Source: Acanthamoeba sp. SK_2022b (lineage: Eukaryota > Discosea > Longamoebia > Acanthamoebidae). Taken from it: a DNA stretch of 64,000 nucleotides. A model generated the notes under the pieces. The model was not told where the DNA came from. It did no database searches and saw nothing but the letters and a program-made list of their open reading frames with translations. Positions 45,226 to 50,263 of the stretch are shown here, one piece after another. Position numbers and translations under genes: made by a program. The DNA is taken from positions 178,385 through 242,384 of the forward strand of contig JANDJZ010000005.1 in the NCBI GenBank assembly GCA_027943245.1, read 5' to 3'. Numbering within the stretch: the stretch's first letter is position 1; every line of letters begins with the position of its first letter.

Positions 45226-45231
45226 TTTATT
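45226..45231 (-). terminator. Polyadenylation signal for MUS81 in a 48-base gap
   Basis: AATAAA on the minus strand, 16 bases after the MUS81 stop and about 28 bases before the YbaB-like ATG, in an A-rich run. Confidence 0.45.
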
Positions 45232-45246
45232 TTTTGGTATTTCTTG

Positions 45247-48200
45247 TTAAAAAGATATCGACTTTTCTTGCTGTGGTCCGAAGATCTCGGCTAGTGCTTC
45301 GTATATCGCCCGGCTGTTGATGGTGCCCGCTAAAGGGTTGGTCTGCTCCTGTGTGTCACCATCCTTCTGTTGCTGTAGTTTCTCCGCAAAGTGGTGATGA
45401 TGCAGGGCGTCGATAAGGCTCGTGGGCGTGGGGTAGGCTCGAGAGATGGCGAGCGCGTCGGTGTGCGAGATGCCAGGCACGTAGAGGAGCATGCGGGCCC
45501 AGGTGCCCAGCTCAGCGTTGAGAAAGTTGTGCTTCTTGAAGGCGGTCTGGAAGGCCCGGAACGAGTACTCGCTGCCATCGAGGCCGTGTTTGTTGTAGTG
45601 CCGGCGCAGGCGCTTGGTCATGCGCCACACATAGGCCGCCGTGTCGTACTGCGTGAACACGTGTTCGATGAAGAGGTTGTTCCGCCCTCGTGGCTGGCTC
45701 TCGATTTCCATCAGGAAGAAGTCGATGATCGCGTCAAAGCTCTCCCTGATCGCGTGGGACCTCGCAGGGTCAGCAACCACGTGCGCTCTTGGGTTGGGCA
45801 GCAGTACCGCGGGAGCTGTGGGTTGGTTGCATAGGGCTGCTCGAGGAGAAAGACAGTGTTGAGTCGACTCCCCTTCAGCCGTCGATACTGGTCGTCCAAT
45901 CTCGTGTCATGCAGTGAGGCCACGAGGTCCCGCATCGTCTTGCGCTCCACGATCCAGTCCAGCACCACCTCCTCTCTCGGCCACTTCGTAGGCACGCATA
46001 CGAGCCTGTCAACCCATTGGTCGGCGACCAGTGAGTGGGGTGGTCAGCGTACCGAGAGCACGTCGGTCGGGCACCGCCTCCGAGCCACCCAGATATAGTC
46101 CCCGAGGGAGAGGCCTCGCCGGTCGATAGCGATGCCTCGCTCCCGGAGGTCGTCCTGTCTCTCGTCAAAGCATTCCCACACCTTGTCGGTGATGCCCTTC
46201 GCTTCCGAGCTGCAGTGATAGCCCCATCTAGATCAGCAACAATCCGGGAGGAGCTACACTCGAACGGGGAAAGGCCAAACCTGTCGGTGACGAGCACCAC
46301 CTCCCAATCGCGCTTGAACTCCTCCGGGCTCACCTCCACTCGCCTCGGCTCCCGATAGGGCGAGGCCTCGAGATCGTCGTCAGCGCCAGACCTGCCCGTG
46401 GTGGTGCTTCCGAAAGCGCTACCCATGCCCCATGGCTTGGAGTCAATCGCCTGTTGACAGTACAACCGCGGCAGCGGGAAAGGTCAGCCATGGTTGACGA
46501 GCGCGTGATTGAGAAGGGTAAAGAGAGCGAGTCGAGTACTGAAAACGGAGAGGTCGATTCTGCACCTGCGCTCTCTGACGTCTCGACCGGTCCAGTAGGT
46601 TGTGGCGCCACTCCCCGCTGCTGGGTGTGGCGGAGGTAGGGGCGACAGTGGCCGTGGAAGCCGATGTGCCAGAGGAGGTGGTGCACGTGGACACGGGTCT
46701 ATCTACCTCGATGTCCCCGTTGTTGCCTGTGAAGCTGGCCAAATTGGTGGCGGCGGGGGCCAAGAGAGCAGCAAGGCCTGGTGGCGATGTTGCGCGATAG
46801 GGCGAGGAAGCGCACGACAACGCCAAGGGCGCCGGAGACGCGGACGAGGGGCGAGGCGCAGATGAAGGGAGGAGTGCGGGTGTGCTGGCGGCACGCGTCA
46901 GGTCCCGTGTGGGAAGAGGAGGAGAGGAAGACGAGGGCCGCGGAGGTTGTGAGGCTGGCGGCGGCAGAGTGGGGAGAGTTGGCAGGGGGACGTTATCTCG
47001 ATGGCGTCTTTGCATGTCGACGCTGATGGCCTCGAGCGCCATCAGGCACCCTTCCTCGGTAAGACCGCACCTCTGTGCTCCTGTAGCGACGATTACCACA
47101 ACGATGACATGACGACAGACACGCTCAGGTGAGACATGGAGCTCCTGGGGGGGGGGGCTCTGGGAAGTCCATATGGAAGTACTTTCTTCGTGCACGGCAA
47201 CAGCTCCCCTCTTGAGAGTGGCCTTGACGATATTCCAGACGCACTGAGGCTGTAAAAGTGGCGTTGAAACGGAATTGGGTGAGCACACGGGGACTCGCAT
47301 AGGTTGCGTACAGTGAAGCGGGCGGTGACGCACGCCTTCTCCTGCAATGCGCGGGCAGTAAAGTTTCATTATGGGGAACAACTCCTGCGGACCTGCGCTT
47401 GTATGCCCCGCCTGCAAGGGAGAGGAGAAGCACACTATCAATCGCTCGGGTCCTGTGTTGACCAACGACAGCCAGGTAAACGAAAAAGGCAGAATAACGT
47501 GCCTGGCGGAGCATGTGAAGGGCAATAAGGAGAGCGCAGGGCCCGGTGAAGGACTTGAAGCGATAGTCCTGCTTCCCAATGCCCGACGATGGTGACGTGG
47601 ATGGCGACGTGCGACCGAGCGGCGAGCTACTCAACACATCGGAGCTGCTTGGCCTGCGCTCCTCGACAGTCACCGGTGCTGGCGAGGTCGCCGTCTCTGC
47701 AGTTGGTTGTTGTACGCTGGGTTCGTGCGTCGCTACGCCCCTGTGAACACACGGGCGCACAAGTAAGCAGGGCGCATGCGCGGCAATGGAGTCCCCGTTC
47801 GTACCGCGCGTAGGTATTGCACAGGGCGATGAAGTTGGCGGAGACATGTGCGAGCACAGAGTCTGCTCCCGGCATCCTTTTAAGCCAGTCGGGGGCGGTC
47901 ACGCTGTCGCAAATGACCGCGGCCAGACAGGCGATGATGTGCTTGCACCAGCCCTTCTGTACACATATTCACATGTCAAGCCAATCGCGCGCGTGCACAC
48001 GCCAGTTGGTTGCCTGACGTACATGGTGCCGCGAGGCGGACGTTTGACGTGCACACAGGCACTCCGCGCGTTTGAAGCTTCGCCCAAAGTCAATGATCAC
48101 TTGATACGAGTCCGCGTGCTGCCCCAGCACGCGGAACTCAATGCGGCGGTCCGGCAGCTCATGCCGTGCGATCACAGCGCCCACGAGGTAGTAGGCCAGA

Positions 48201-50106
48201 CCTCGTTGCACCGACCCTTTGTCAGGCGCATACGCTTCCAGATATGCCGGGAACAACTCCATGACATTGGTCGCTCCTACGACATGTCTGAGATGAGACC
48301 TTCAAAAATGTTGAGGCTACAGCACATCCACGGCGTACCGCGCATACGTTCGGGCAGCTGACCGGGCCGAGCCGAAGGAGCAGCAGCGCCGGTGCGAGCT
48401 TTCTTGGCATGGGGTTCGTCGGCCTGCGCATTTGCGCTCGCGGTTGGAGCCACGGCGGGCAGGTCTGGAAGGGACGCATTGCGGCGCGATCGTTTTGCAC
48501 CGACTGTTTTGCCAACGAACGCGCTCAGAAGTTGCCGCTCGTGACGTGTCGGTGCACCACCAAATAAGGAGGCGGATGACGACGTACCGACCGCCGTGGT
48601 GCTCGCAGCCACGGAAGGGCTGGCAGCCCCGGAAGGTGACACGGGCGCACTGTGGCTCCCTGCCACGACCGCGCGATGTGAGGTCTGTCTGAGGCCTGTA
48701 CCAAGAGAACAGGAGCCAAACCTGGAATCGCAGAGGGCGAGGAGAAGCTCAACACTCGAGCAGATCTGCTTCTGTTGGGCGGCGGTGCCGGCGAGGTGCG
48801 CACGGGCGACACCACCCGCTGCTCTGGTGCTGGGCTCGCTGGAGCTTGGGCGAGTTCTTTGCGCAGGATCTCCGCCGCGTGGAGGATCACCCGCTGATGT
48901 CCTGCGCAATAATCAGTGCGGGAACGCCAAGTCGAATCTGTGTCAGGAAGCAGGGCTTACCGAGCAGCGTGATGCCCATCGCGTTGAGGTCCTCCGCAGA
49001 CAGGTACTGCAGCTCCACGGGTCGCGTGAAGCCATTTTGCGCTAATCGCTCCGCATACTGGCACGTGTAGCGGAACGTTAGCGTTGGGGTGAGCACTTTC
49101 ACTTGTGTTGACGCACGAGAGCGCAGCGTGGATACCTGAGGATAGCCGAGCATGACCAGCCAGTCCCCAACAAAGGAGCTTCCGAGGAGGCCCGCATTTG
49201 TTGTTTGCCCAGGCGAAGCCAGCTGCATTGTGGGAGACGTAGCCGACAGCCGTCGTTGGCCGTTCGGCGTTGGTGTTGCACTTCCTCTTCGTGAAGCTGC
49301 GCGACCGCGTGTAGAATCAGTCAATTGTGAGCACACAGCTAGGGGACAGCCACGGGGAAGCATACATGACGAAGGCGACCTCGGCGATAGAGGCCTAGAG
49401 AGCGGAGGAGGTATCTCATAGACGTCCGCATCCACTTTTGTTTGTACGTGACTTGCGGTTTGTGCTTTCACCTCGATTACCTCTGGCTCGTCTTCCTGCG
49501 TCAAGTCAAGGAGAAAGCTGTCCTCGGAGCGCGTAACCTGCATTCACGATCAAGTGAGATCAGAGAGCAAAAGGAGCATCGGGACTGGAGATTGTGTACT
49601 CGAGAGGGAGTGGCCGATGCCTGTTGTTTGGCGGGAGGAAGGGTGCCTTCGCGCTCGTCGGAGATCATGGTGCCGAGCTGCTGAATCAGGGTCGTCCGAA
49701 TGGCCGTGTCCACTGCATCAGACGCCCACGCTAGTAGCACAGCAGCAGCGTGAGCTGGCGTAACAACGGTTCAAGGCATGAGCCACAAACGCATGCGGTA
49801 CCGCCAATGCCCCTAAAGGATGTGAGCTCTTCGCCCCGTTGGATAGGCAGCGGGTACTCCCTCAGGCACTCCACCACCTACGCAGCGCCCCACGCACCAC
49901 GTGCTTCAAATTTTGAGTGATCAACTCGGCTGTCAGTCGCCTATGGCATGAAGATGAGGATAGACCTTGAGAAGGGTGTGCGATTTGTTGGCTTCGCCGT
50001 TCTGCGCAAACTCGCGATGTCGCACCAGCAAGTTCCCCGCTACACTCCTGTTCCAATCTGCTGCAGTAGGAGCCGTTGGGCCTATCGTTTCTTCGTCCTT
50101 CTTCAT
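45247..50106 (-). CDS. MUS81: MUS81 structure-specific endonuclease with inserted SAM and SWIM modules
   Basis: ERCC4-type nuclease that cuts branched DNA at stalled forks and recombination intermediates. Start ATG 50106 (MKKDEETIGPTAPTAADWNR). NKSHTLLK joins VVECLREYPLPIQRGEELTS and FRGIG (about 49830-49990): the MUS81 N-terminal helix-hairpin-helix. Then come a SAM domain, a SWIM finger, and a winged helix (YRFKSFTGPCALLIALH; WNIVKATLKRGAVAV; GLTEEGCLMALEAI at 47050-47560). The nuclease follows: VVLVTDSSEAKG (rebuilt over an intron), GLSLGDYIWVARR, LDWIVERKTMRDLVASLHD with the catalytic ERKxxxD (about 45920-45960). The end has the second HhH MLLYVPGISHTDALAISRA and TAA 45247-45249. Catalytic residues are intact, so it is MUS81 rather than EME1. 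It looks roughly twice the usual 550-630 residues. One N-terminal exon carries the SIM-like PEVIEV. Confidence 0.88.
47915..48070 (-). other. SWIM-type zinc finger encoded within MUS81
   Basis: AECLCARQTSASRHH joins KGWCKHIIACLAAVI across a GTACGT...CAG intron, giving CxC-x13-CxH, the SWIM pattern (seen for example in the recombination factor SWS1/ZSWIM7 and in MULE transposases). It is preceded by FRVLGQHADSYQVIIDFG, which fits the beta strands before SWIM fingers. The exon then runs to CNTYAR and joins GVATHEPSV in frame. Confidence 0.75.
48848..49180 (-). other. SAM domain encoded within MUS81
   Basis: FVGDWLVMLGYPQ, YAERLAQNGFTRPVELQYLS, AEDLNAMGITLLG and HQRVILHAAEILRKEL, rebuilt over two introns, give the five-helix SAM pattern (W...L...Y...F......L..L...DL...GI...G.R..IL..I..L). 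SAM domains mediate protein oligomerisation or RNA/protein binding. Confidence 0.8.
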
Positions 50107-50263
50107 TTGCTAGATGAGTTTTTGTTTGGCAAAAAAAAAAAAGAAAAAGAGAAATTAAGTATCATAATAAATAAATGCATTTATTGTGGCCGTTCAGTGC
50201 GAAAGCCGTGGGGAAGGAGGGTCTCGTGTGAGGTGTGAGAGTGATTGCGGTGGTGGGAGGAGA

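Follow-up and report, generated by a model that had tools for sequence, protein, structure and literature searches.

A putative second, divergent MUS81-family nuclease gene with SAM and SWIM domains in Acanthamoeba

MUS81 is commonly described as a single catalytic gene with a dedicated partner. In an extract of one report, the helix-hairpin-helix (HhH) of human MUS81 is described as DNA-binding, with a preference for single strands, and as the contact site for SLX4 (PMC5344696), and an extract of another states that the human MUS81 winged helix binds DNA, that its deletion reduces activity, and that a winged helix is present in most MUS81 orthologues, except those of nematode and fruit fly (PMC3834828). 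Mus81 has also been reported in Cochliopodium (extract of PMC7641356). In this study, we analysed a window of 64,000 nucleotides from Acanthamoeba sp. SK_2022b (assembly GCA_027943245.1, contig JANDJZ010000005.1, positions 178,385 to 242,384; positions below are those of the window), the minus strand of which carries a MUS81-like gene with SAM and SWIM domains. The product of this gene is probably a DNA-structure-selective endonuclease, a second and divergent member of the MUS81 family in a genome that also keeps an ordinary MUS81-EME1 pair. It was undescribed among the matches listed in literature searches on MUS81 with SAM or SWIM, Acanthamoeba and Amoebozoa, as judged by titles and the beginnings of abstracts.

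Gene model, domain order and relatives of the nuclease

The gene model was assembled manually on a sequence-only basis, guided by splice signals and homology, and consists of the following features, all on the minus strand.

45247..50106, minus: MUS81-like gene with SAM and SWIM; 18 exons, coding sequence of 3582 nucleotides including the stop codon, 1193 amino acids
50106-49966, 49877-49802, 49712-49600, 49537-49366, 49296-49136, 49057-48961, minus: exons 1 to 6
48901-48722, 48659-48339, 48276-48023, 47956-47805, 47740-47503, 47411-47334, minus: exons 7 to 12
47249-47183, 47080-46566, 46450-46281, 46209-46053, 45983-45808, 45760-45247, minus: exons 13 to 18
49660..50049, minus: MUS81-type N-terminal helix-hairpin-helix, residues 20-90; YPLPI at residue 55, FRGIG at 68
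48852..49180, minus: SAM domain, residues 207-270, exons 5-7; SAM_2 4.8e-13 and SAM_1 9.3e-11, above Pfam cut-offs
47915..48223, minus: predicted SWIM zinc-finger domain, residues 439-519, exons 9-10; CxC at 48061-48053, CxH at 47947-47939
47031..47580, minus: putative winged helix, residues 610-700, exons 11-14, from alignment to PDB 2mc3
45828..46303, minus: ERCC4 nuclease, residues 905-1016; Pfam ERCC4 1.5e-16, above cut-off, aligned with MUS81 and XPF
45259..45501, minus: divergent C-terminal (HhH)2-like region, residues 1110-1190; EME1-MUS81_C 0.0073

The spliced frame is open for all 1193 codons, with the stop codon ending at 45247, and the 17 introns measure 47-115 nucleotides each, 16 of them GT-AG and one (47502-47412) GC-AG. 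A preliminary description, made from the letters of the sequence, had placed HhH, SAM, SWIM, winged helix and ERKxxxD nuclease in this order on the minus strand, and the 18-exon model confirms this order, followed by a divergent C-terminal HhH-like region on the same strand; the five exon joins proposed there (R/VTRSED, LLG/HQRVIL, MRG/ATNVMEL, HH/KGWCKH and YAR/GVATHE) are all in frame. The joined model and its domain matches, with ERCC4 and SAM_2 above their Pfam cut-offs in the joined protein, support the earlier proposal that a MUS81-family nuclease here has SAM and SWIM inserted after its HhH and before its winged helix. The linkers between domains are rich in Pro, Ser, Ala, Thr and Gly.

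In the alignment with MUS81 and XPF the catalytic residues are kept, namely D911, E914, GD at 948-949 and ERKxxxD at 977-983, the last motif lying at 45947-45927 on the minus strand. This ERCC4 catalytic motif is common to XPF and archaeal XPF/Hef as well (C614 of the same genome was read as XPF). Compared with MUS81, XPF, Hef, FANCM and EME1, the window nuclease comes nearest to MUS81. The joined protein matched 34 distinct PDB sequences at an expectation value (E) of at most 0.1, four of them MUS81, over the nuclease, and the other 30 over SAM, with zebrafish MUS81 at 7.8e-13 and 50 bits. The N-terminal HhH aligns over 33 residues with that of the ordinary MUS81 protein of the same genome (C501) at a score reached by none of 2000 shuffles, and the two genes share the position and phase of intron 1; against PDB the N-terminal piece found MUS81 HhH chains weakly (E 0.74 and 0.96), ranked behind two unrelated chains. 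Of 98 residues taken from 2mc3, the winged helix of human MUS81, 89 align to about residues 610-698 of the window protein, at a score reached by one of 2000 shuffles of residues 596-720 and one of 500 of the whole protein; the winged-helix piece had no Pfam match, and its PDB search gave five weak matches, all unrelated. A winged helix between HhH and nuclease has, on these alignments, moderate support. The SAM piece found 11 matches in its own genome, three being the window gene itself and the other eight lying at E 9.5e-4 to 0.46.

The ordinary MUS81 gene of this genome (G000:C501, L024:2776-5754 +) encodes 794 amino acids, in which neither SAM nor SWIM was matched and a winged helix is not clear, the 2mc3 score being reached by 143 of 500 whole-protein shuffles and by 81 of 2000 for residues 281-380. 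In PDB, the C501 nuclease piece reaches zebrafish MUS81 at 1.6e-48 and 169 bits, and the window protein shares 27% identity with C501 over 238 nuclease positions. An EME1 gene (G000:C753, L025:3564-1507 -) encodes 472 amino acids with no ERK motif seen, and human EME1 chains (1.3e-21 and 1.9e-21) are among its best PDB matches.

C501 is much closer than the window protein to animal MUS81, and the window gene fails as the MUS81 orthologue of the genome; it looks like an addition to the ordinary MUS81 and not its replacement. With animal MUS81 and C501 it shares the YPLP-bearing N-terminal HhH, the D...E, GD and ERKxxxD nuclease and perhaps a C-terminal HhH, and with human MUS81 the putative winged helix, but it differs from animal MUS81 and C501 in the inserted SAM and SWIM and in its strongly diverged nuclease.

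Affinities of the SWIM domain

The SWIM domain is predicted from its CxC...CxHxxA motif together with homology to established SWIM proteins. When 72,556 plasmid records were searched by tblastn at E <= 10, 37 records were matched, of which 30 were near-identical Pseudosulfitobacter matches in a gene annotated as DEAD/DEAH box helicase (E 6e-4), one was a Sulfitobacter SNF2-related protein (2e-3) and four were annotated as SWIM (E 0.03, 0.2, 0.5 and 8), the remaining two (E 3 and 4), on the strand opposite to annotated genes, being regarded as chance. Pfam SWIM was above cut-off in all three matched proteins that were scanned, one a helicase and two SWIM-family proteins. The SWIMs of prokaryotic SNF2/DEAD-type helicases and those of SWIM-family proteins resemble that of the window in the order of RGxxY, V..., a YxVxI-like strand and CxC...CKHxxA. 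However, the prokaryotic helicase SWIM sits N-terminally, whereas that of the window sits inside a nuclease protein, and the spacing from CxC to CxH is 13 residues in the window against 5 to 7 in the prokaryotic SWIMs.

A SWIM model built from five of the tblastn-matched sequences, with the Sulfitobacter near-duplicate (L014) excluded, scored 46.3 bits on the window protein, the best of 2000 shuffles reaching 5.6, and leave-one-out models scored 32.5-49.1 bits, but this test is biased upward because its five sequences were found using the window's own SWIM, and tblastn is for that reason the cleaner evidence.

The genome also has an SWS1/ZSWIM7-like gene (G000:C349:31753-32026 +), the protein of which is 37% identical over 142 residues to human SWS1 and found no SWS1 in PDB, where its matches were weak unrelated chains. 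The window SWIM shares the CxC...CxHxxA motif with SWS1/Shu2, as the motif is given in an extract of PMC6316741. However, C349 is a separate gene, by BLAST the window protein had no match to it at E 10, and human SWS1 gave only two short stretches (E 0.19 and 0.84). The SWIM models from prokaryotic proteins gave 32-49 bits for the window protein and about 0-8 for the C349 protein and human SWS1, so that the analogy to SWS1 drawn in the preliminary description does not hold; as far as these comparisons go, the window SWIM is not of the SWS1 type.

Within its own genome, the SWIM piece matched its own locus and, at E 0.091, one other. The strongest Pfam SWIM match of the genome (G000:C153:67073-67159, L005; 2.3e-6) carries a YTVTI strand ahead of the CxC, and this C153 SWIM is a possible internal source of the window SWIM.

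In the protein database, none of 8000 candidates scored with the full-length query reached E <= 0.001 and none of 132 with the SWIM region reached E <= 1, while the nuclease region gave one of 2533 at E <= 1 (P0001, an ERCC4-type nuclease, E 0.21); this absence says little, because none of the three queries returned a clear eukaryotic MUS81. The SWIM piece had no NCBIfam match and nothing in PDB at E 10. Viral contigs scanned with the SWIM and nuclease pieces, and prokaryotic genome contigs scanned with the nuclease piece, gave no relative.

Evidence against and rival explanations

Besides the bias of the SWIM model, several results weigh against a second MUS81-family endonuclease of this architecture. 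HHH_8 matched the N-terminal piece (2.9e-5, 24.8 bits) under its cut-off of 30, and the SWIM piece had no Pfam match at E 10 and was not among the seven Pfam SWIM matches across the whole genome. EME1-MUS81_C on the C-terminal piece reached 17 bits, under its cut-off of 27.4, and on the joined protein, too, HHH_8 and EME1-MUS81_C both stayed short of their cut-offs. The window nuclease is no nearer to C501 than to animal MUS81, and in NCBIfam, a prokaryotic library, its matches are the archaeal families Hef (0.012) and Xpf (7.1e-4), both well short of the cut-offs. As to the continuity of the gene, the linkers were tested by dynamic programming over open paths, at the intron number of the model, against 300 shuffles; the open path was equalled by 7 shuffles for HhH-SAM, 57 for SAM-SWIM and 60 for SWIM-winged helix, and by 25 for the control linker between winged helix and nuclease. 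None of the four linkers has a codon score that places the model frame above both alternatives in the forward direction. No AATAAA, ATTAAA or AGTAAA lies between the AATAAA at 50185, which follows the preceding gene on the same strand, and that at 45231, just past the stop of the MUS81-like gene, an absence that is weak evidence since 1 to 2 occurrences of the three motifs are expected by chance from base composition.

The linker results bear on an explanation by two adjacent genes, one for HhH and SAM (50106 to about 48340) and one for SWIM, winged helix and nuclease beginning at an in-frame Met at residue 419 or 426, or else a break between SWIM and winged helix, which we consider unlikely. 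Neighbouring genes are tightly packed, the open paths through the SAM-SWIM and SWIM-winged helix linkers do not reach significance, both Met residues are present, and retention of the intron at 47804-47741 leaves the exon-11 frame open upstream to beyond the ATG at 47847 named in the preliminary description (open reading frame 47898-47125). However, two genes would leave a MUS81 HhH without a nuclease beside a MUS81 winged helix and nuclease without an HhH, in MUS81 order, and, as a weak point, no polyadenylation-type signal lies in between. A break after SWIM finds no Met ahead of the winged helix in the spliced frame, which has none between residues 533 and 632, while the ATG at 47847 lies in exon 10 (47956-47805), in a frame different from that of SWIM, and leads into exon 11 only if the intron is retained; both genes would then overlap, as this exon carries SWIM. 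A single gene, presumably transcribed as one unit from HhH to nuclease, is favoured because any break would part MUS81's own HhH, winged helix and nuclease.

It might also be argued that the gene is a decaying paralogue, or encodes a DNA-binding protein that does not cut, given the strong divergence of the nuclease (the 27% identity to C501, and 50 bits to zebrafish MUS81 against 169 for C501) and two family profiles under cut-off. This seems very unlikely in view of 1193 open codons over 18 exons with standard splice dinucleotides, the retained catalytic residues and the AATAAA at 45231 right after the stop. The fuller reading of the preliminary description, that this is the self-contained MUS81 of the organism with fused SAM and SWIM standing in for separate partners such as SWS1 or EME1, described the domain order and catalytic residues correctly but is barely tenable as regards replaced partners, for the genome contains an ordinary MUS81 (C501) and EME1 (C753) as well as the SWS1-like C349, and the window SWIM is not SWS1-type.

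Among the neighbours, a gene of the YbaB/EbfC DNA-binding family (about 45198-44721, minus; Pfam 3.3e-11) begins about 50 bases past the stop of the nuclease gene, and an EF-hand-like protein gene lies upstream (about 50820-50264, minus; EF-hand_7 9.8e-6, with 26.3 bits where the cut-off is 30).

Possible function and implications

For the second, divergent MUS81-family endonuclease that we favour, the ERCC4 domain would nick branched DNA, at flaps or junctions, using metal ions, and the HhH and winged helix may bind the substrate and recognise branched DNA, by analogy with human MUS81. SAM might link copies of the protein or dock onto another SAM protein, and the SWIM zinc module could supply an additional DNA or protein contact, as might the SWIMs fronting prokaryotic helicases, with the linkers serving as flexible tethers. 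SAM and SWIM would be additions within the linker between HhH and winged helix that alter assembly and targeting. The C-terminal pairing region has diverged, and the nuclease partner is probably either the shared EME1 or the protein itself.

A further reading, possible but doubtful, is that of an undescribed, EME1-independent MUS81 subfamily in which SAM drives self-assembly on DNA, and SWIM, captured from a prokaryotic or SNF2-type source, targets structures, of recombination or of forks, that are outside the range of the ordinary MUS81-EME1. A MUS81-EME1 pair together with a second paralogue that has intact catalytic residues and carries SAM and SWIM would provide a natural test of new targeting or of EME1 independence and, if our reading is right, a nuclease has here gained a SWIM that does not stem from the SWS1 line.

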